A DNA stretch of 39,662 bases from Anaerolineae bacterium (GCA_030950085.1 JAUZRW010000201.1:1-39662), one strand, 5' to 3'. Shown: positions 4,204 to 17,049, counted from the stretch's first letter. The notes: generated by a model from the letters alone, not told the origin. Translations and numbers: made by a program.

Positions 4204-5631
4204 TTATTCTATCGGGACGATGACTTGTCCGCGTGCCTCAGAAAAAACCGCTTTCACGCTGTCTTTATCGCCTGCGAAGAGCAAGCCAGCACTGATTTCA
4301 AAGGCGATTTCATCCGGTACAGAGGTCACTTCAAAGGGGCGGATTTCACTTTTACCAAGTCGGTTGAGTGCGAATCGTTCCCATTGCATCAGTTCGCTCA
4401 AAACTGATTTGCTAGACGGTTCGTTTTCATCAGTTACATCATCAGCCGTGTTGTCATTCACCTCTACAAGATTTTGCATATTCACGGGCAAATCACCCCA
4501 TGTTACAGATGGCATCTCATAATAGCGTTCACGGATTTCATTGATGCTGAGGATATTCTGCGCGGTGCGAATCTCATCAAGGCGTGTTTGCGTATCGCTT
4601 GGACGAATATCATCAAAGACGGCGATATGGTCTCCGCTATAGAAAGGCAATAGTTCTTGTGTGATTTTCTGGGCGAGGCGCACGAGTTTTGGATACAGCG
4701 TGCGCTCAATGAAAAGGCGTTCGGCGACTTTGGCATTCGCTTCGGTAGCATTTTCACTGACCAAACCCACCGGAATGCCGAAGATATTCAAGATTTCGTC
4801 TCGATGCGTTTTACGCCCTTTGAGGAAGTCCAAATCGGTATGCGACAAACCGATATTCTGCCATTCGACAGCCCCACCGCGCAAGAAAGCAGTTTTACGT
4901 TGGGCATTGCCATAACTGCCGCGCCATTCGCGTTTGATGCGCTCGAAGTCATTATCGCTGATAAATTCTTTGATATTGACAATGCCTGCCGGAACACCAT
5001 TATCTTGTCCGAAGGTATTTTTGTTCCAGCGTGCCATAGCGCGGTCACTATCAACAGCCATCCGTGCCGCTTCTAATGCCGATAAGCCGTAATAATCACT
5101 CGCCGGATGCCAACGCTTGAAATGCACGACTTCCACTGTTTCTAGCGGAATCCGTTTGCCATCTACTTCATAGATATAGCCTGCGACATAGTGTTGTGGG
5201 TGCGGCACAATCGTCACACGGTCAGGGCGCAGAGTCCAAATTTGCGTCGGGCGACCTTGATTATCGCCCACCAAAAACCAGTAAGCATTGCCTGTTAATT
5301 CCAGAAAACCGATGGTTTGCTCAAATAACTCAAAGCGACTCAGCATCGGATTAGGATTATCTAGCAAAACTTCCAGTGGATGGCGTATTACTTCGACACG
5401 CTGTTCGCCTTGCATTTGCAAAACCCGCAACGGCACGAGTGCGGCGGCTTCTGCAATGCGATTGACCGCAACATAGACATACGGCGATTGCTGATACATC
5501 GTTTCGTGTTCAGTCACACGGAACGAGTCTCCAAAATAGGTGCTATTATGCACAGCGACAGCTTCCACATGCGGAGGCTTTGCCTGTAATTGACTTGCAT
5601 TGCGAAACAGATTACTCAACCACTGCCACAT
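4204..5631 (-). CDS. HK97-type phage portal protein, isolated
   Basis: The 475-residue product matches HK97-family portals throughout. It has the entry segment YVYVAVNRIAEAAALVPL, the conserved LTGNAYWFL and WTLRPDRV, the VEVVHFKRWHP strand, and the region FGIPVGLVSE before the ERLFIERTLYPKL helix. In phages the portal forms the dodecameric ring through which DNA is packaged. Its length suits an intact gene. The ATG at 5631 is preferred because AAAGAGG lies six bases upstream; the ATG at 5637 would abut that site. No terminase, protease, capsid or tail gene lies beside it. It is therefore an orphan, either a prophage remnant or a gene domesticated for another role. The C-terminal 80 residues after VNMQNLVEV are acidic and weakly conserved. 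Confidence 0.85.
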   Translation of the reverse strand: MWQWLSNLFRNASQLQAKPPHVEAVAVHNSTYFGDSFRVTEHETMYQQSPYVYVAVNRIAEAAALVPLRVLQMQGEQRVEVIRHPLEVLLDNPNPMLSRFELFEQTIGFLELTGNAYWFLVGDNQGRPTQIWTLRPDRVTIVPHPQHYVAGYIYEVDGKRIPLETVEVVHFKRWHPASDYYGLSALEAARMAVDSDRAMARWNKNTFGQDNGVPAGIVNIKEFISDNDFERIKREWRGSYGNAQRKTAFLRGGAVEWQNIGLSHTDLDFLKGRKTHRDEILNIFGIPVGLVSENATEANAKVAERLFIERTLYPKLVRLAQKITQELLPFYSGDHIAVFDDIRPSDTQTRLDEIRTAQNILSINEIRERYYEMPSVTWGDLPVNMQNLVEVNDNTADDVTDENEPSSKSVLSELMQWERFALNRLGKSEIRPFEVTSVPDEIAFEISAGLLFAGDKDSVKAVFSEARGQVIVPIE

Positions 5632-5765
5632 ACTCATCCTCTTTTCTCAGGACATTCATCATAAGAGCAGATTAGCCTATTTGTTCTATTGGTTGTGGAT
5701 GATATGGAAGAAACAAAAATGAGAAGATTGTTTGCTTACTTGGCAGAATAGTAAAAATTATCAGT

Positions 5766-5834: not shown

Positions 5835-6074
5835 ATGGGTGATATAAAACAACTTATAGGCAATCGCATACGCAGTCTCAGGCAAGAGGCAAGTTACAGT
5901 CAAGAAGTGTTGGCACATCGCTCTAGTCTTGACCGTACCTATATTAACAGTGTAGAAAATGGACATCGGAATATTTCAATCGTGAATTTAGAAAAAATAG
6001 CATCAGCACTTGATGTCTCTTTAGCAGAATTCTTTGGAACAAGCGCGTTTGAAGAAGTGCCTCATGATGAATAA
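5835..6074 (+). CDS. Restriction-modification controller (C) protein, XRE-type HTH
   Basis: The 79-residue protein is a single helix-turn-helix domain: IGNRIRSLRQEASYSQEVLA, then HRSSLDRTYINSVENGHRN and NLEKIASALDVSLAEFF. RTYIN-VE-G-RN followed by NLEKIA is characteristic of C proteins of type II RM systems. It should dimerise and bind the boxes at 5766-5791, delaying endonuclease expression after entry into a new host. It is translationally coupled to the endonuclease, whose start overlaps its last codons. An earlier ATG at 5815 is out of frame. Confidence 0.85.
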   Translation: MGDIKQLIGNRIRSLRQEASYSQEVLAHRSSLDRTYINSVENGHRNISIVNLEKIASALDVSLAEFFGTSAFEEVPHDE

Positions 6075-7158
6075 AGCTGAGTTTATTGAGAATCTCATTG
6101 TGCAAGAATTTCCCCAATGTCAAGAATACATCCTTAACCTTCCAATTATTCAATATCTGTACAAGAAAACTCGTTCTGTGACACGGGGTAGTAAGGCGCG
6201 TGGAAGTTTTGGCAATCTATACGCCATTTATGTGCTGGTTGAAGATTACATCAACAACGGCTTTGCGGATACAGAAGATTATGATAATTACGATGGGATG
6301 CAATTTACAGAGGCGTTTAAGCGTCAGCGAGACTTACCCTTTGGTGAAAAACTCCAAAATCATGCGTTGAATCATCGGTGCAATGAAGAATTCAAAAAAT
6401 ATTATCCAGATTTATCCAGCCAATTACCGATAATTCGTAATAGTGACACGAATCGCTATTGGTTCAATACCTATCATTTGCTTGCTGGGTGTGATGGGCA
6501 ACAGGTCAATATTGCACACTTTATCATCCAAATTATTGATAGATATGTGGAATTAAAACAAGCAAACTTTGAGGCGTTCTTTGGAACTTTAGAAAATTTG
6601 GCAGCACAGCAAGATTGGCAAAAATTAGAAGATTTTATCCGTTCGCAATTAAACCCTGATGTTGATGCACGGATTTTTGAGATTGTCTCTTACTGTATCT
6701 TGCGACAGGTCTACGAGCAGGAAAAAGTATTCTTTGGGAGCAGCATAGACCAAGTGACAGAAACGCACCTCAGATTATTTAGGACAGGGCGCACAAACTC
6801 AAATGATGGCGGTATTGATTTTATCATGCGTCCGATTGGAAGGATTTTCCAAGTAACCGAAGTCGTGGACTTCAAAAAATATTTCTTGGATATTGATAAA
6901 ACGAATAAATATCCGATAACTTTTGTTGTCAAAGTGCGTCATACGCCTAATGAAGTTTTTGAGCAAATCGTAAAACAAGCAAAACGACAATATCTCGATA
7001 CTAAAGTGCGAGAAACCTACTTAAATGCTTTCGAGGAAATTATTACACTACCGACGCTAACAACATATCTTCATGCCGTGATTCAAAGTAAACACACCCC
7101 CCAATTGATTGCCGATATTATCCGACAATGTAAAATCGAATATAACATTCCATTCTAA
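6064..7158 (+). CDS. Type II restriction endonuclease (partner of YhdJ-like methylase)
   Basis: The 364-residue product follows the C protein with an 11-base overlap (ATGATG at 6064-6069). A long helical N-terminal region precedes a nuclease core with a GGID motif (D252). The strand IFQVTEVVDFKKYF carries candidate catalytic residues E266, D269 and K271. This resembles PD-(D/E)XK or QxK-type folds, although the exact triad is uncertain. Its place between a C gene and a convergent adenine methylase identifies it as the cognate endonuclease. If the methylase has YhdJ specificity, it should cut ATGCAT (the NsiI site); this is inference. The stop codon overlaps the methylase stop by four bases, in convergent arrangement. 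Confidence 0.8.
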   Translation: MMNKAEFIENLIVQEFPQCQEYILNLPIIQYLYKKTRSVTRGSKARGSFGNLYAIYVLVEDYINNGFADTEDYDNYDGMQFTEAFKRQRDLPFGEKLQNHALNHRCNEEFKKYYPDLSSQLPIIRNSDTNRYWFNTYHLLAGCDGQQVNIAHFIIQIIDRYVELKQANFEAFFGTLENLAAQQDWQKLEDFIRSQLNPDVDARIFEIVSYCILRQVYEQEKVFFGSSIDQVTETHLRLFRTGRTNSNDGGIDFIMRPIGRIFQVTEVVDFKKYFLDIDKTNKYPITFVVKVRHTPNEVFEQIVKQAKRQYLDTKVRETYLNAFEEIITLPTLTTYLHAVIQSKHTPQLIADIIRQCKIEYNIPF

Positions 7159-8063
7159 TCAAATAGCGGCTTCCGATTCGCATGATCCTTTTTTGATTTA
7201 TTCTTAGTCTTTCGCACGAGGTCACGTTCAAGTATCGCGCCCTCATATTTTGTACAAATACTCATCCGTCGCAAGCCAATTTTGAAATACTCAGGATTGA
7301 TGTCGGCTGATAATGCCAAGCGATTGTTTTTGACAGCAACTGCCCCTGTTGTGAAAGAACCCCCAAATGGGTCAAGAACAAAGTCTCCTTCATGACTTGA
7401 TGCCAATATAATACGTTCTAACAAAGTTTCTGGTTTCTGCGATGGGTGATTTTCGTATTCCGGCATCCGATAACGTACTCGTGGAAAATCCCACACATTA
7501 CCCGGTAGTTTTTGAGTATTGTATGGTTGTGGTGGTGACTTGCGATAGTCAATTAATTTTCTTTGAGCGCCTGTTTTCGCTTCAATTTTAATGGCTTCTG
7601 CATTGAAAGTATATTGGTTTGGATTCTTCACTATCATCACAATTGGTTCATATAAAGAACCAAATTGTCGTCTAGGCTGTACCCCAGAACTATCATAAGT
7701 CCAGATAATGCGTGACAGCACATGATAATGTTCTGATACAAAAACATCTAAAGACGGCATATATTGGGTAGCCGCCATGAAATAAAGTGTCCCATTTGGA
7801 TGAAGTATGCGATGGCATTCAGTTAACCATTCTTGACACCACTGTACGTAGTCACTATCGGGCATTTTTGTTCGACCATTGCCAAAATCTTTGCCTAGAT
7901 TGTAGGGTGGGTCAGCAAATATCAGATGGATTGAATTGCTGTTAATAGCTCGCAATACATCAAGAGCATCATCACATATTGCCAATGCTTGATGATTTGC
8001 CTCATATACAGCAGGCATTGTTTTGAAGAGTGCTTGAAAAGTCTTCATAAATTGGAATTGCAT
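7155..8063 (-). CDS. yhdJ: Adenine DNA methyltransferase, YhdJ-like (probable ATGCAT specificity)
   Basis: The 302-residue protein is a beta-class amino-methyltransferase: catalytic motif DPPYN near residues 51-55 and the SAM-binding loop DPFGGSFTTG near 231-240. Several stretches, TYDSSGVQ, SLYEP, QRKLIDYRKSPPQPYN, PGNVWDFPRVRY and YENHPSQKPE, closely follow Escherichia coli YhdJ, an orphan methylase known to modify ATGCAT. Here it is paired with an endonuclease and a controller, so it protects host DNA. The ATG at 8063 has no ribosome-binding site. A TATAAT seven bases upstream suggests a leaderless transcript. A C-box-like operator overlaps that -10. A second ATG at 8048 (MKTFQAL) is an alternative start. 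Confidence 0.88.
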   Translation of the reverse strand: MQFQFMKTFQALFKTMPAVYEANHQALAICDDALDVLRAINSNSIHLIFADPPYNLGKDFGNGRTKMPDSDYVQWCQEWLTECHRILHPNGTLYFMAATQYMPSLDVFVSEHYHVLSRIIWTYDSSGVQPRRQFGSLYEPIVMIVKNPNQYTFNAEAIKIEAKTGAQRKLIDYRKSPPQPYNTQKLPGNVWDFPRVRYRMPEYENHPSQKPETLLERIILASSHEGDFVLDPFGGSFTTGAVAVKNNRLALSADINPEYFKIGLRRMSICTKYEGAILERDLVRKTKNKSKKDHANRKPLFD

Positions 8064-8080
8064 CACGTCGATTATAAGTC
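8064..8080 (-). promoter_or_regulatory. C-box-like operator over the methylase promoter
   Basis: On the minus strand GACTTATAATC (8080-8070) matches the C-box pattern GAC-N-TAT-N-TC of the two operators at 5766-5791. It contains a perfect TATAAT (8076-8071), and CGACGTG then leads straight into the ATG at 8063. A -35 is not obvious (TTATTG 18 bases upstream, or TTGTGA 15 bases upstream). In Esp1396I-type systems a single C-protein site at the methylase promoter represses it; the same logic would fit here. The site is seen; the binding is inferred. Confidence 0.6.
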
Positions 8081-10232: not shown

Positions 10233-10811
10233 CTATTCACCCCACTCAATATGCCCATTGATGTCGTGCTTATCATAAACAGCCAGAATATCGCGGCAGA
10301 AAGCCATCATGCCTTCATCGTTGATACTCGCAGCAGATTCATAAAGCCGTATGAACATCCGCTTACCGGATTCGGTTTGGCTATAATTCTTTTTACGAAA
10401 GTTATGTGCAGCACAAAGGGTTTGACCATTTTCTAATGTTGCTTTTCCCCCTTTGTCTTTAGGTTTGATATGGTCGGCATGAATTTCGACACCATTTTCA
10501 CGTCCTAAACCGCAAATCACACAGCGATAATTATCCCGTCGGAAAATCTCTTCACGCATTTCTGCTGTAAAATCTTCTAATGTCCTAACATGAACAGTGT
10601 CAGGGTCATAGCGATAAACACCTTTTTTGACTTTGACGAGATAACCATTCTGATGAAGTTTTCTTATCGCTCTATCAGGGTCACGAAAAATACTATCAGT
10701 ACGCCGCTTATATTCAGCAACCGCCCAATCAACAATCTCTGCATGAGGAATGTCTTGCTTGGGATGCGCCTTATAGTATTCTAAAATTAAATCAGCTTGG
10801 GTTTTAGCCAT
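10233..10811 (-). CDS. HNH restriction endonuclease of the second RM system
   Basis: The 192-residue product has a winged-helix-like N-terminal half (ILEYYKAHPKQDIPHAEIVD, then AIRKLHQNGYLVKVKKGVYRY). It then has an HNH nuclease domain with a zinc finger: C97-V-I-C100, H114 in HADHIKPKDKGG, N128, and C133-x2-H136. HNH enzymes cut DNA with one metal ion, and the winged helix would supply sequence recognition. The gene overlaps the end of the upstream methylase gene by 25 bases on the same strand, the signature of a coupled methylase-endonuclease pair. The recognition sequence cannot be read from the protein. Confidence 0.85.
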   Translation of the reverse strand: MAKTQADLILEYYKAHPKQDIPHAEIVDWAVAEYKRRTDSIFRDPDRAIRKLHQNGYLVKVKKGVYRYDPDTVHVRTLEDFTAEMREEIFRRDNYRCVICGLGRENGVEIHADHIKPKDKGGKATLENGQTLCAAHNFRKKNYSQTESGKRMFIRLYESAASINDEGMMAFCRDILAVYDKHDINGHIEWGE

Positions 10812-11698
10812 GTGTCAGTCAGCCTTTTTTCTGCAAGTTGACAGTATTCTTCTGAAAGATCAAAGCCGATGCCAACACGCTTATTATCCCATGCCTCAAT
10901 GAGCGTTGTTCCACTGCCTAAGAAGGGGTCAAGCACTGTCGCACCCACAAAACTAAACAATTTGATACAACGTTTTGGCAATTCACGCGGAAAAGGTGCC
11001 GGATGCCCGATACGTTTTTTGCTTTCGCCATTGAACGTCCAAACCCCATTTGTCCATGCCATAAATTCATCGCGGGTAATGTCATTTTCGCGTGAGCCGC
11101 TTGTCTTCTTCCAATTTTCTTTGTACATCACCACAATAATTTCAACAGGCGCAATGACATAAGGGGCAGAGGCACTCATCCATGACCCCCAAGCAGTCCG
11201 CCGTGAAATATTGCCTTCATTCCAGATAATCGTTGAGTGATATTGCCAACCAACATCTTTCGCTATTTTTGTAATATCCGCACCAACACTTTGTTGACCA
11301 CCTTTATTTTTATCTAGTGGAATGTTCATACATAAGCGCCCATCAGACCGTGAAACTTGATAGGCTTTTGTCAGCCACTGCTCCGTAAACCATAAATAAT
11401 CGTCATATTCATCGGTATCATCATGATTACTGTAATCAATACCGAGATTATACGGCGGCGAAGTCACAATTAAGTCTATGGTCTCATGTTCAAGCGCGGA
11501 AGAAGTGATAAAATTATCATGGTAAATGGTCACATCATTTTCGCTAAAGACGGGTTTAACCGGTGGATTTGTACTCAGATTGTCCTCAATTTCTTGAGTA
11601 GGTGGAAGGTTCTCTCCTTTTTTGATAAAAGCCTTTAAGTCTTCTTCTTTGACCTGTAGTTCTGACGCAATCCGCTTATAATCGACCCAATCCACCAT
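10787..11698 (-). CDS. Beta-class DNA methyltransferase of the second RM system
   Basis: The 303-residue protein has the beta-class motif order: catalytic T79-S-P-P-Y-N84 first, then the target-recognition region, then HPAPFPRELPKR and the SAM-binding DPFLGSGTT near the C-terminus. SPPY is common among N4-cytosine methylases, but the following N and NLGIDYS also fit N6-adenine enzymes, so the modified base is undecided. The first 50 residues (VDYKRIASELQVKEEDLKAF) resemble a small helical DNA-binding extension. It is transcribed before the HNH nuclease with a 25-base overlap, so methylation would precede cutting. No controller protein is seen for this system. Confidence 0.88.
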   Translation of the reverse strand: MVDWVDYKRIASELQVKEEDLKAFIKKGENLPPTQEIEDNLSTNPPVKPVFSENDVTIYHDNFITSSALEHETIDLIVTSPPYNLGIDYSNHDDTDEYDDYLWFTEQWLTKAYQVSRSDGRLCMNIPLDKNKGGQQSVGADITKIAKDVGWQYHSTIIWNEGNISRRTAWGSWMSASAPYVIAPVEIIVVMYKENWKKTSGSRENDITRDEFMAWTNGVWTFNGESKKRIGHPAPFPRELPKRCIKLFSFVGATVLDPFLGSGTTLIEAWDNKRVGIGFDLSEEYCQLAEKRLTDTWLKPKLI

Positions 11699-12794: not shown

Positions 12795-13991
12795 TTAATC
12801 GCAGGTGATATCATCCGCTACCGCCGCAAGATTCTGGATTCGTTGGAATTCTTGCAAATAGAGGCTGGCAATATCCGCATTCCGAATAATGACGACATTT
12901 TCATCATTGCTTTCAACAGCATTATTGCTGAAATTGAACGACCCCGTAATCACGACCTGACTATCAATGATGATGACCTTATGATGCAGCGCCCCATTAT
13001 TGCCATCTTGACGCACATCGACCCCCGCACAGAGCAAACGTGGCATTTCACTGAAACGAGTTTTGCTACCCGTGGTTTCAAAAACACCTTGGACATCAAT
13101 ACCGGCGGCGGCTTGCGCCATCATTGCTTCGCCCATATCATCACGGGTGAAAGAGAATATCATAAAGCGAATCGTGCTTTGTGCGCCATTGATTTCTTGT
13201 AGGATTTCCTCCACAACTTCGTTTTCGCTGGCAAAGTAAATTTCAATCGGTGTGCCATCTTGTGTGAAATTCGCAGTATTACTGTCATCAGAACGGGTTC
13301 CAAATTCACCGCGTTCAAACATCTCATCAAACTCAGCCTGATAAGTTTCGACTGCCCGACGGGAGCGCATCACAAGCATATTGTTATTATTGCGATAAAC
13401 CCCGTTAGTGGTGTAATTCATCGACCCCATCCAAACCGTGATGCCATCCATAATCATGAACTTGTTGTGCATCAAAGCACTGCGCCCATCATCAATGATA
13501 TCAATGCCTTCTAGTTCGAGGTCAAGCAGTGTCGTATCATCATCTTCAATCCCATGTTCGTTATCCGTCACAATGCGAACAGCGACACCGCGTTCATGGG
13601 CGCGTAAAATGGCATCGGTAATGACTTCGTTATTCATCTCAAATGCCGCGATATCGAGCGTATTCTGCACCACATCAATTGCTTCTGCAATCGCTGTATC
13701 CACCCCATTTTGATATTGAGAACGGTCACGGGTATTAATCGGACTCGTAAAATAAACTTGCCAGAATCCGCTGCGTGCGCCACTGCCTTGTTCAAAGGTC
13801 AAAACTTCATAGTCGCCAGTCGCAGCAGGGGTGGCAACAGAGGCGACTTGTGTACTGCTTGCTTCAGGTGTCGCAGACCCATCGGTTAAATCAATACCGG
13901 TCACGGCATAAAAAATCGCGCCAACAATGACCACGACAACGGCAATAATGCTGCTCACAATTGGATTTTGCTTACTCTTCTTTTTCGTCAT
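12795..13991 (-). CDS. Membrane-anchored phospholipase D-like protein with two HKD motifs
   Basis: The 398-residue product has one N-terminal transmembrane helix (residues 10-31), a Ser/Thr/Ala-rich linker (38-60) and two PLD halves. Motif 1 is H175-N-K177 with D182 (MHNKFMIMD); motif 2 is H336-H-K338 with D343 (LHHKVIIID), followed by GSFNFSNNAVESNDEN. Both catalytic sets are complete. The family includes phosphodiesterases acting on phospholipids and nucleases such as Nuc and mitoPLD/Zucchini; the substrate is not decided. The domain would face the outside if the anchor is type II. The ATG has AGGAG 12 bases upstream and overlaps the end of the upstream gene by 20 bases, so the two are coupled. 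Confidence 0.87.
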   Translation of the reverse strand: MTKKKSKQNPIVSSIIAVVVVIVGAIFYAVTGIDLTDGSATPEASSTQVASVATPAATGDYEVLTFEQGSGARSGFWQVYFTSPINTRDRSQYQNGVDTAIAEAIDVVQNTLDIAAFEMNNEVITDAILRAHERGVAVRIVTDNEHGIEDDDTTLLDLELEGIDIIDDGRSALMHNKFMIMDGITVWMGSMNYTTNGVYRNNNNMLVMRSRRAVETYQAEFDEMFERGEFGTRSDDSNTANFTQDGTPIEIYFASENEVVEEILQEINGAQSTIRFMIFSFTRDDMGEAMMAQAAAGIDVQGVFETTGSKTRFSEMPRLLCAGVDVRQDGNNGALHHKVIIIDSQVVITGSFNFSNNAVESNDENVVIIRNADIASLYLQEFQRIQNLAAVADDITCD

Positions 13992-14640
13992 GAATTATAT
14001 TTTCTCCTGATTCATCCTCACCATCGGCTTGATTTATACTATGAGAGTTAGGATTTTCCAATGTTGAATCGTTACGATTTATTTCAAGTGCTGCGGCAAG
14101 ATGGCTAATATCGGGGATAACTTCGGTTTTATCGGTATTCGAGCTATAGGTTGATATGGGCTTATCAGTTGCTGATTGTGCTTCAGTATCAACCCTGTCA
14201 TCAATATTATCAAAAGAAGGCGGCTGGCTAGGTGTTTCAGGCACTAGAGGCTCTGTTTGGGGGGTCAGTGTCGTCAAAATTGCCTTGAGGTTTGCCATCA
14301 TATCTTTGGGGTCAGTGGGCAAAGCTGCAAAGAGGGTTTTTTCGTCCGCCGTATAGCCGAGTGCTTCAAGATACTTGACCACTTTCAGCATATATTTACC
14401 TTGACCATCCCTATCATTAAATTCTCGTTGCCCCACAAAGCGATTAATATTTTTGATGAGCTGCCGTAAAAAGCGCGTCTTTTTCTCAAATTCATCGGGG
14501 AATCTTTGTGCCATCTGCGTGACCTGTGTTTGCCCCCAATCCAATAAGACTGCGCCTTCTGCATCGTTCAAATCATCACGCAGACTCGCCGATTCATATA
14601 ATTTTTCTTGCTCTTTGGCAATGTCATCAGGGCTTGGCAT
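13972..14640 (-). CDS. Uncharacterised helical protein with acidic disordered tail
   Basis: The product has 222 residues. About residues 1-110 are helical and look folded (SPDDIAKEQEKLYESASLRD, VLLDWGQTQVTQMAQRFPDE, FLRQLIKNINRFVG, YMLKVVKYLEALGYTADEK). The remainder is low-complexity, rich in Pro, Thr, Ser, Asp and Glu and probably disordered. No known domain was recognised. The ATG at 14640 has AAAGGAA at the right distance. An in-frame extension to 14961 is rejected because it runs through two copies of a dispersed repeat and into the next gene. The gene overlaps the PLD-like gene by 20 bases, so the two proteins are probably made together. Confidence 0.65.
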   Translation of the reverse strand: MPSPDDIAKEQEKLYESASLRDDLNDAEGAVLLDWGQTQVTQMAQRFPDEFEKKTRFLRQLIKNINRFVGQREFNDRDGQGKYMLKVVKYLEALGYTADEKTLFAALPTDPKDMMANLKAILTTLTPQTEPLVPETPSQPPSFDNIDDRVDTEAQSATDKPISTYSSNTDKTEVIPDISHLAAALEINRNDSTLENPNSHSINQADGEDESGENIIHDEKEE

Positions 14641-14727
14641 AATATTTCCTTTCTTGTGCAGCATCATAGAGTGTACCGTAGCAAGCGACGTTATTTTGTT
14701 TAACCAAGTGGCTATGTTGACCATATA

Positions 14728-14856
14728 GACTCTATCTCGCCATGTCATTTTGTACGAGGCAGGATGAAACCTCCCCGAAGTCAAAACCATACCCCTGCGG
14801 ATAAAATCTCGCCATGTCATTTTGTACGAGGCAGGATGAAACCCCGAAAGGGGCTC
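14728..14856 (+). repeat. Tandem pair of the GAAACCCCGAAAGGGGC element (copies B and C)
   Basis: Copies at about 14728-14783 and 14803-14856 share a nearly exact 36-bp core reading TCTCGCCATGTCATTTTG then TACGAGGCAGGATGAAACC. Copy C ends in the hairpin CCCCGAAAGGGG; copy B has a variant end (CTCCCCGAAG). They are direct repeats about 75 bp apart between the Uma2 gene and the unknown gene, and copy C touches the Uma2 stop (14855). Confidence 0.8.
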
Positions 14857-15409
14857 ATTTCTGGAAAATATCGGCGACTTTGAGTTCAAAATTAGGCAGC
14901 ACCTTGTCGCCGCTAATGGTATCATTCTCTCGATAAATTTTGACTGCCTCACCCGAAACATGCACTTCGACTTCTTTGTTATCGGGCTTCACAACCCAGA
15001 CGACAGTTCCGGCAGCCAAATAATTCGTCATTTTGATGCGGAGTTTATCGTGTTCATCACTACGGTTAGAAGAGATAACCTCGACAGCAAGGTCAGGAGG
15101 ATTAGGATTATAACCGGAACCGGCGAGTTCAGGTTGTTTTTCATAAGAGATAAAGGCGACATCTGGCGCATAGCGTTCACCACTGACGATATATCCACCC
15201 GCTTCACCTGTTATATGTCCGAGTTTATGTTTCTGAACGAAGGTTAATAATAAAGCCCCTATCATCATCGCAATTTTAGATACAGCCGGATTTGATGGCA
15301 CTTCAAATATCCCTCCCCCAATAAATTCAAACAGGCTATCAGCATTTTCCGGCAATTCTGTGAATGCCTCAAATTCTTCAACGGTGTTAATACGTTCTTG
15401 TATCATCAT
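14855..15409 (-). CDS. Uma2 family (DUF820) putative endonuclease
   Basis: The 184-residue product follows the Uma2 pattern: an N-terminal segment ending in DSLFEFIGGGIFEV, a long helix (VSKIAMMIGALLLTFVQKH), then RYAPDVAFIS, PDLAVEVISSNRSDEHDKLR and the IKMTNYLAAGTVVWVVKP helix-strand. The PD, E-V and K residues (PDVAF, LAVEVIS, HDKLR) fit a PD-(D/E)XK nuclease core. The family is very abundant in cyanobacteria and Chloroflexota, with no settled function. The ATG at 15409 has GAGG eight bases upstream; a TTG two codons earlier is less likely. The stop lies in a repeat copy, so the last residue or two may be supplied by it. It is 84-90 bases downstream of translin on the same strand. Confidence 0.85.
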   Translation of the reverse strand: MMIQERINTVEEFEAFTELPENADSLFEFIGGGIFEVPSNPAVSKIAMMIGALLLTFVQKHKLGHITGEAGGYIVSGERYAPDVAFISYEKQPELAGSGYNPNPPDLAVEVISSNRSDEHDKLRIKMTNYLAAGTVVWVVKPDNKEVEVHVSGEAVKIYRENDTISGDKVLPNFELKVADIFQK

Positions 15410-15499
15410 GTGCAAAACCTCAGATTAACCTGAGTCCATTATACGTTCGATATGAAATGCGACCAAATGTGAATTCGGGAAATTGACCTTTACGTCATA

Positions 15500-16141
15500 T
15501 CAGCCGTTATTCATGCGCTCTTCAAATTCTTTCAAGGCAATCTGTAATCTTTGCTGTTGGAGGCTATTGGTCAAGTCACCGCGAGTACGCTCTAAAACAC
15601 CACGCACAATGTCCGTTTGCCGCCGAAGACCGTGAGTTAAGGCATCTGGAAAATCAAATGTAATCAATTGACCGTAAATTTCATCCATCCATTGCAACAA
15701 GCGTTCCGCTTCTTCAATATCGCCATCAGGACGGCGCATAATATCCAAGATAAAGCGCCGCAATTCTGTTGCCGCCTCGCCTAAGCCCTTGAGATACGTA
15801 GACCCTTCGACATTCAATTCTGCCTTTGTCGGAACGGGATGGTTATGAATAATGGCATAGGTAATATAAGCCTCGACAACCTCTTTGAGCGCATCTTGTG
15901 TATACCCACTGTGATACAATTCGGGGTAGCCAGCCACCACTGCTCGTAACTCATCTGCCCGTGATTGAACGACTTTCAGTTTTTCATCCACTGCCTCCCA
16001 CTCGCTGCGATGCACTGCCCGAATACACTGTGAGCAATGACGAATCAATTCTCGTGATTGGGTAATTGCCTTATCACGGGCGGCATTGATGTCTTCCATA
16101 TTAGCGCGAATGGTTTCTGCAATATCGTTAAGATTGCCCAT
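15500..16141 (-). CDS. Translin/TRAX-family protein, candidate RNase subunit
   Basis: The 213-residue all-helical protein matches the translin family along its length: AARDKAITQSRELIRHCSQC, AVHRSEW, DALKEVVEAYITYAII, YLKGLGEAATELRRFILDIM, AERLLQWMDEIYGQLITFDF and LRRQTDIVRGVLERTRGDLT. In eukaryotes translin and TRAX form C3PO, an RNA-cleaving octamer used in RNAi and tRNA processing; archaeal versions also form octamers. TRAX catalytic acidic positions align with E87, E90, E122 (Asp in TRAX) and E126, so activity is plausible. The ATG at 16141 has GAGGG about nine bases upstream and overlaps the DUF3467 gene by 14 bases, indicating coupling. The function of bacterial translins is not established. 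Confidence 0.85.
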   Translation of the reverse strand: MGNLNDIAETIRANMEDINAARDKAITQSRELIRHCSQCIRAVHRSEWEAVDEKLKVVQSRADELRAVVAGYPELYHSGYTQDALKEVVEAYITYAIIHNHPVPTKAELNVEGSTYLKGLGEAATELRRFILDIMRRPDGDIEEAERLLQWMDEIYGQLITFDFPDALTHGLRRQTDIVRGVLERTRGDLTNSLQQQRLQIALKEFEERMNNG

Positions 16142-16454
16142 TATTGTCACCCTCTCCACTGACAACACCAAACAATTGGTCAGCTAAAGACGGCGGACGC
16201 TGTGGTGTCTCAATTTCGCCGAATTTTTCTTCGTATTTCGCCACATTTTCTTGCAAAGCCTTCAAGAACAACTTGGCACTGGTCGGATTCATGATAATCC
16301 GTTGTTGCACTTTGGCACGCGGGTCATGCGGCAATATCTGAATAAAGTCAAAGAAGGCTTCATTTTTGTTATGACTAATCATGACCGTATTGGCATATGT
16401 ACCACTTGGGTCTTTGGGCATCTCTAGTTTGATTTTTCGTTGTTTGGGTTGCAT
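16128..16454 (-). CDS. DUF3467 family protein
   Basis: The 108-residue product matches DUF3467: an early YANTVMISHNKNEAFFDFI strand pair, AKVQQRIIMNPTSAKLFLKA, then LQENVAKYEEKFGEIETP and a polar C-terminal tail (LFGVVSGEGDNNGQS). The biochemical role of the family is unknown. No catalytic residues are evident. It is likely a small cytoplasmic alpha/beta protein. It opens the run leading to translin, sharing 14 bases with it, so the two are probably translated together. AAAGG precedes its ATG. What lies upstream is non-coding. Confidence 0.85.
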   Translation of the reverse strand: MQPKQRKIKLEMPKDPSGTYANTVMISHNKNEAFFDFIQILPHDPRAKVQQRIIMNPTSAKLFLKALQENVAKYEEKFGEIETPQRPPSLADQLFGVVSGEGDNNGQS

Positions 16455-17049
16455 TTAATCGCCTTTTTTCTCTATTTGAATAGTGGTATGGGTTCATTAT
16501 AGCGGATAGATGGACAAATGTGAGGGAAGCAAAAGGACGTTGTTGCTAATAGTTGACCGTTCGCACAACATCGTGTATTGTATGGACACTGTAAAGTCAT
16601 GCGGAGTTCTTATCATGGTCATTTTCACAATCATATATCCGCAGGGCGTAGGGGTCGTCCGCTCTTCTCTTATGTAGCGGTTGATTGCCGCGCCCCACCG
16701 GATTCTCCTCATTTTCCACAATCGGACACATCACCCAAACAGTGCTATACGCTTGCCTGTTATGATTTTGATTTGTGCATTACGCCTCAGCAGATGCCTA
16801 AGACAAAGCGAATTTTAGATGATGTCAGAATTGAATGACTAAAATGCTGATAACTAAACTCAGTAAATCACAGATTCGTACTGTCATGATATTTCAGCAA
16901 TTTTCGGACGTGACAGGTCATGTCCCTACATTCATAATAAATTTGTAGGGACAATATCCATGTTGTCCGCCGTTAAAATGCAAAACTCTGATTGACTGAA
17001 ACTGATGACTCATCACTGACAACTAAACCAATGGAGAGAAAAATTCACA
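16455..17049. other. Long intergenic region between the DUF3467-translin run and leuS
   Basis: The region must hold divergent promoters for the minus-strand run and for leuS. An 86-codon plus-strand frame at 16578-16838 lacks a ribosome-binding site, family resemblance and normal composition (Cys-, His- and Pro-rich), and is not called. The bipartite repeat at 16905-16972 lies before leuS. No T-box core motif was found upstream of leuS. Confidence 0.5.
16905..16972. repeat. Bipartite palindromic repeat upstream of leuS
   Basis: TGTCCCTACA (16921-16930) and TGTAGGGACA (16944-16953) pair perfectly. Each flank is itself a small palindrome (GGACGTGACAGGTCATGTCC on the left, GACAATATCCATGTTGTC on the right), so the 68 bases can form a cloverleaf of three hairpins. 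The same architecture recurs at 24755-24828 and, degraded, at 28079-28148. Confidence 0.75.

Follow-up and report, generated by a model that had tools for sequence, protein, structure and literature searches.

A conserved DUF3467-TRAX gene pair in Anaerolineae and its possible link to single-stranded DNA

The window analysed here is a whole stretch of 39,662 nucleotides from an Anaerolineae bacterium (GCA_030950085.1 JAUZRW010000201.1:1-39662), and our subject is a pair of genes on its minus strand, one encoding a DUF3467 protein and the other a TRAX-type protein of the translin superfamily. Read from 16454 to 15500, the pair is a translationally coupled two-gene operon, DUF3467 first and then TRAX with an intact active site. 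Taken jointly with the interpretation that the products form a coupled nuclease pair, in which DUF3467 is the adaptor or regulator and which has a role on single-stranded DNA (ssDNA) linked to the ssDNA-binding protein SSB, we give this an even chance of being correct. The region around the pair is composite: the conserved DUF3467-TRAX pair, one Uma2 gene of a repeated family and a second conserved pair, UNK222 and a PLD-like gene, lie side by side. The features of the DUF3467-TRAX pair are as follows.

16496-16524, minus strand: promoter-like site CTCACA-17-TATAAT, a pattern match only (agreeing with the consensus at 10 of 12 positions), which precedes the start of DUF3467 by 42 bases
16128-16454, minus strand: DUF3467 gene, 108 amino acids, PF11950 at E 2.5e-21 (75.9 bits against a gathering score of 25)
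16170-16190, minus strand: SLADQLF motif, residues 89-95 of DUF3467, candidate docking motif
15500-16141, minus strand: TRAX-type translin-superfamily gene, 213 amino acids, identified by phmmer, structural match and PF01997 (22.9 bits)
15872-15883, minus strand: catalytic residues E87 and E90 of TRAX, equivalent to human TRAX E126 and E129, invariant in 183 of 183 open reading frames (ORFs)
15764-15778, minus strand: catalytic residues E122 and E126 of TRAX, equivalent to human TRAX D193 and E197

The TRAX-type protein and its active site

A preliminary description of the region had named the second gene translin. The superfamily was given correctly, while the type was not, the gene being of the TRAX type, that is, the catalytic branch of the superfamily; residues and predicted structure agree on this. 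Against the Pfam Translin family (PF01997) the protein scores slightly below the cut-off of 25.9 bits, and a phmmer search with it matched the archaeal AfTRAX (3zc1) at E 4e-25; no haloacid dehalogenase appeared among the matches. The best NCBIfam models, the PRK14562 series, carry the name 'haloacid dehalogenase superfamily protein' and all remained below their cut-offs, which suggests that the label is misleading for TRAX-like proteins. The model of the monomer (pLDDT 96.8) shows the all-helical translin fold and superposes on AfC3PO with a Z of 23.6 and a root-mean-square deviation of 1.6 Å over 188 residues. The corresponding Z is 22 for NeC3PO, including its complexes with single-stranded RNA and ssDNA (5jrc, 5jre), 20.6 for human TRAX and 12 to 17.5 for translins.

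Three of the four active-site residues match E126, E129 and D193, catalytic residues of human TRAX. The fourth matches E197, a catalytic residue of human TRAX, and translin retains just one of the four catalytic residues (PMC9246224). Among 183 TRAX homologue ORFs surveyed, all four positions are acidic in every case; the E126 position is conserved in 183/183, and the E122 position is glutamate in 182 and aspartate in one. Counted on the alignment, E122 and E126 fall on D114 and E118 of AfTRAX. The chain of 3zc0 differs from that of 3zc1 by an exchange of D to A at the residue aligned with E122, a change that fits, as we infer, an active-site mutant for trapping duplex RNA.

The search for the translin superfamily gave one match per genome, and no separate translin paralogue was found. 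When genomes were drawn evenly from across the phylum, independently of the comparison set, 111 of 201 Chloroflexota genomes carried TRAX. The gene is thus widespread in the phylum, and DUF3467 is a partner that it has at the level of the class. Bacterial members of the superfamily are already known (Gupta 2012, as cited in PMC5424206 and PMC3834833). Two observations on the surroundings of TRAX may be added. At five of the relatives' TRAX loci, L032 among them, a gene downstream on the same strand encodes a large protein that begins with what looks, from the sequence, like a TIR domain. Outside the window's class (at L176, L177, L189, L194, L207 and others), TRAX recurrently lies between two conserved genes, which read as thiamine-phosphate-synthase-like and proton-pumping-pyrophosphatase-like.

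Pairing of TRAX with DUF3467

The comparison set comprises 61 genomes, among which TRAX occurs in 47, this DUF3467 in 37 and both in 36 (Fisher p 4e-6, an indicative value since the genomes are related and hence not independent). DUF3467 adjoins TRAX in 35 of the 37 genomes that hold it, and it lies directly upstream in 34 of the 46 relatives' loci inspected (47 loci counting the window). The distance from the DUF3467 stop to the TRAX start is mostly -4 to -17, so that the genes usually overlap by 4 to 17 bases; in the window the overlap is 14 bases (16128-16141), as had been described. The coupling of the two genes proposed in the preliminary description therefore reflects a real conserved unit. 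In the even draw, strong matches to the TRAX-type DUF3467 are confined to the window's class, and the coordinates of 17 of 19 copies place them next to TRAX.

Adjacency of this kind could be a chance inheritance, in which TRAX and DUF3467 would be an old housekeeping pair kept in one operon with no joint function. Shared ancestry makes the adjacency counts non-independent, and in some genomes the two genes stand apart (G022, G212, G244); G022 has both genes, with DUF3467 elsewhere beside another gene, and G030 has DUF3467 with no TRAX found. However, genomes with the TRAX-type DUF3467 almost all carry TRAX as well (36 of 37), and the pair stays together where the genes around it change. We therefore consider chance inheritance quite improbable.

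The model of DUF3467 consists of three strands and a long helix (pLDDT 76, with the core mostly at 87 to 97; pTM 0.50), and this strand-strand-strand-helix domain is followed by a C-terminal part with the SLADQLF motif and an acidic tail. Its structural neighbours are COMM domains, PUR-alpha, PC4/Sub1 and trypanosome MRP1/2, all at a weak Z of 3 to 4.6, and the top Foldseek match is the MoSub1-DNA complex at E 0.09. No match by sequence was found among solved structures. The predicted fold gives a hint, no more, of single-strand binding. A motif of the [ST]LADQLF type is present in 73 of 76 DUF3467 proteins from TRAX loci. Among eight DUF3467 proteins that do not adjoin TRAX, the motif is absent in six (L229, L231-L233, L172, L292), and the two that carry it are L230, which lies beside an SSB gene, and L295, a split-off copy.

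Distant paralogues of DUF3467 head a different module, in which DUF3467, a small protein X and a PIN ribonuclease follow one another in tight order. This DUF3467-X-PIN arrangement is found in three genera: the genome of the window has two such paralogues, of which one carries an in-frame stop (L173), and G022 and G029 have a single one each (loci L172, L292 and L293). DUF3467 thus accompanies two unrelated nuclease folds, TRAX and PIN, and a family without an assigned function gains two nuclease contexts.

These PIN-ending modules lend some colour to the idea that DUF3467 and TRAX might be toxin-antitoxin-like, with DUF3467 restraining a ribonuclease. The TRAX pair is, however, single-copy, widespread and apparently vertically inherited, TRAX without DUF3467 is common (11 of 47 genomes), and no PADLOC family matched either protein, so that among the systems in the 2023 library there is no known anti-phage defence to which the pair could be assigned. 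Plasmid, phage and viral collections contain no relatives of the pair, and a mobile or phage origin was rejected on this ground. A toxin-antitoxin-like function would thus be unlikely.

Linkage to SSB and the proposed role

Clustering of the neighbouring genes brought out a second recurrent gene. In 20 of the 47 loci, which come from six families, an SSB gene lies directly upstream of, and on the same strand as, DUF3467-TRAX or TRAX alone; this neighbour in relatives, more informative than those of the window, is absent from the preliminary description. In a second set of 80 further loci from named assemblies, mostly Chloroflexota and partly overlapping the first set, SSB lies within 1.5 kb upstream in 25. 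Seven further loci of the same class with SSB upstream of TRAX add two families, giving at least eight families. The genome of the window has two SSB genes, one in an rpsF-ssb-rpsR cluster and the other alone on another contig, encoding a protein with a DDIPF tail. In the SSB tree a branch with 100/100 support has all TRAX-linked SSBs and the window's second SSB on one side and the rpsF-linked SSB1 on the other. Since this second SSB groups with the TRAX-linked ones and lies elsewhere, the lineage of the window has retained the SSB2 type and lacks the linkage. SSB2 is not dependent on TRAX, as an SSB2 gene is also present in some genomes that lack TRAX. Upstream of DUF3467 in the window is a divergent LeuRS gene. 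A remnant of SSB between the two was sought and rejected, as only short matches at chance level were seen. In the open-access literature we found no mention of a linkage of TRAX to DUF3467 or SSB, or of translin in Chloroflexi, though it may have been noticed earlier elsewhere; for DUF3467 itself the literature yielded a single paper on an unrelated matter.

How the parts would work together we infer from gene order, conservation, family membership, active-site residues and predicted folds. The pair of the window would be what is left of an ancestral ssb-DUF3467-TRAX operon of Anaerolineae. TRAX alone would most likely assemble into a barrel-like homo-oligomer, as archaeal C3PO does, and would cut short single-stranded nucleic acid at a metal site formed by E87, E90, E122 and E126. 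DUF3467 would most likely be a dedicated adaptor or regulator that docks through the [ST]LADQLF motif of its tail, and its three-strand sheet perhaps binds single strands. SSB2, with its DIPF tail, could coat or present the substrate and thereby bring the pair to SSB-coated DNA. One role for such an assembly might be the removal of RNA or ssDNA remnants at R-loops or at replication or repair sites. A full SSB-DUF3467-TRAX machine of Anaerolineae, in which the adaptor delivers a C3PO-type nuclease to SSB-coated ssDNA for genome maintenance, is a more tentative proposal, which we hold as less probable than the coupled pair itself.

The main rival is a pure RNA enzyme. In this explanation TRAX trims tRNA leaders or degrades nicked RNA, DUF3467 acts as a subunit that binds RNA or inhibits the enzyme, and the neighbouring SSB reflects shared expression. 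It finds precedent in the eukaryotic C3PO, which is an endoribonuclease (PMC3834833), in the TRAX of Nanoarchaeum, which degrades RNA by itself (PMC9051087), and in archaeal TRAX genes, which lie beside SepRS and endonuclease V (PMC8762117); moreover, TRAX is kept in Chloroflexota classes in which no SSB or DUF3467 adjoins it. It is less easily reconciled with TRAX being repeatedly and specifically linked to the second type of SSB in at least eight families and with the weak ssDNA-binding-like fold of DUF3467, which suggest ssDNA in addition; an ssDNA complex of NeC3PO has also been solved (5jre). We regard an RNA-only function as possible, and as clearly short of an even chance.

Several observations weigh against a coupled pair acting on ssDNA. 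Outside Anaerolineae, neither SSB nor DUF3467 was found adjoining TRAX in 41 loci, several of which end at contig edges, and TRAX can therefore work without them; within the comparison set, too, 11 of the 47 TRAX-bearing genomes lack DUF3467. SSB is not in the operon in the window itself. The structural matches of DUF3467 score low (best Z 4.6, Foldseek E 0.09, with a model pTM of 0.50), and the E122 position carries E where human TRAX has D193. Gene order alone is also no demonstration of physical interaction.

Neighbouring genes and comparison with known systems

Downstream of TRAX, the minus-strand region continues with the following features.

14855-15415, minus strand: Uma2 nuclease-like gene, PF05685 at E 4.8e-24, an unlinked neighbour; the start codon is ambiguous (TTG 15415 or ATG 15409)
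14734-14771 and 14806-14843: a direct repeat of 38 bp in two identical copies, spaced by 72 bases, in the stretch from Uma2 to UNK222
13972-14640, minus strand: UNK222 gene, 222 amino acids, which opens the second conserved pair, UNK222-PLD
12795-13991, minus strand: two-HKD PLD-like gene, PF13091 at E 1.1e-50, second gene of the UNK222-PLD pair

ORF calls and profile searches found all five minus-strand genes where the preliminary description had placed them, and the same holds for the repeats that separate Uma2 from the last two genes (14734-14843), the 20-base overlap of UNK222 and PLD (13972-13991) and both HKD sets of the PLD-like protein, which carries two HxKxxxxD motifs, HNKFMIMD and HHKVIIID. 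The proposal built on them, that all five belong to a single system for processing RNA or DNA, did not hold. It could appeal to a common strand, small gaps and a membership drawn mostly from nuclease families. However, none of the 46 relatives' loci has UNK222 or PLD near TRAX, and Uma2 turns up there only sporadically, not as a consistent neighbour; the 80 named loci show the same pattern. In these relatives translin-superfamily genes mostly keep DUF3467 beside them and do not keep UNK222, so that only the first half of the neighbourhood expected in Chloroflexota was recovered, and this is the outcome that the preliminary description had itself named as refuting the system. UNK222 and PLD form a pair of their own, Uma2 is dispersed, the repeats and a gap of 200 bases separate the modules, and the PLD has a membrane-anchor-like N-terminus. 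A single five-gene system is therefore very improbable.

The Uma2 family is dispersed: the genome of the window has 27 matches to it, 26 of them above the cut-off. UNK222 matched no Pfam or NCBIfam family. It has homologues in 34 relatives, and a PLD homologue lies close downstream at 9 of 11 loci inspected in relatives, none of them near TRAX; UNK222-PLD is its own conserved pair. The N-terminus of the PLD-like protein, read from its sequence, is the hydrophobic membrane-anchor-like segment SSIIAVVVVIVGAIFYAVTG, and the protein is for this reason probably in another compartment than TRAX. A large dispersed family was considered for the repeats and rejected, since the genome holds just one further, degenerate copy of their 26-base core. 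No Rho-independent terminator above chance was found between the modules.

Elsewhere in the window, overlapping genes for a DNA methylase and an HNH endonuclease (10233-11698, minus strand) resemble a restriction-modification pair. A second DNA methylase gene, on the minus strand, ends within 4 bases of an opposing ORF of 374 amino acids without a Pfam match (6034-8066), and the two could form another restriction system. At 4204-5637 the window encodes a phage portal protein (PF04860, E 1e-63).

Among known proteins, the single-strand-binding domains of PC4/Sub1, PUR-alpha and MRP share with DUF3467 a weak sheet-helix likeness (Z 3 to 4), below the level of kinship, and no sequence similarity to them was found. 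The protein of the window is over the cut-off of the DUF3467 family (PF11950), to which the TRAX-linked subfamily adds the [ST]LADQLF motif, absent from the PIN-module members L172 and L292.

Translin and TRAX are tied to RNA decay and, through the binding of ssDNA and breakpoints, to genome stability, which raises the question of which role is the older. With a bacterial TRAX whose active site is intact and whose operon includes SSB and a small candidate adaptor, this question becomes testable in a minimal setting that lacks RNA interference (RNAi) and a translin paralogue. With the TRAX subunit of eukaryotic C3PO, a translin-TRAX hetero-oligomer, the TRAX of the window has in common the fold and the active-site positions; it differs in having no translin paralogue (one match per genome), no RNAi context and E at the D193 position. 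Closer still is archaeal C3PO (AfTRAX, 3zc0 and 3zc1; NeC3PO NEQ131, 5jr9, 5jrc and 5jre), which has the same fold (Z 22 to 24), the four acidic positions and a single TRAX-type gene without a translin partner. The neighbours differ, archaeal TRAX lying beside SepRS and endonuclease V (PMC8762117), whereas the bacterial TRAX lies beside DUF3467 and, in relatives of the window, SSB.

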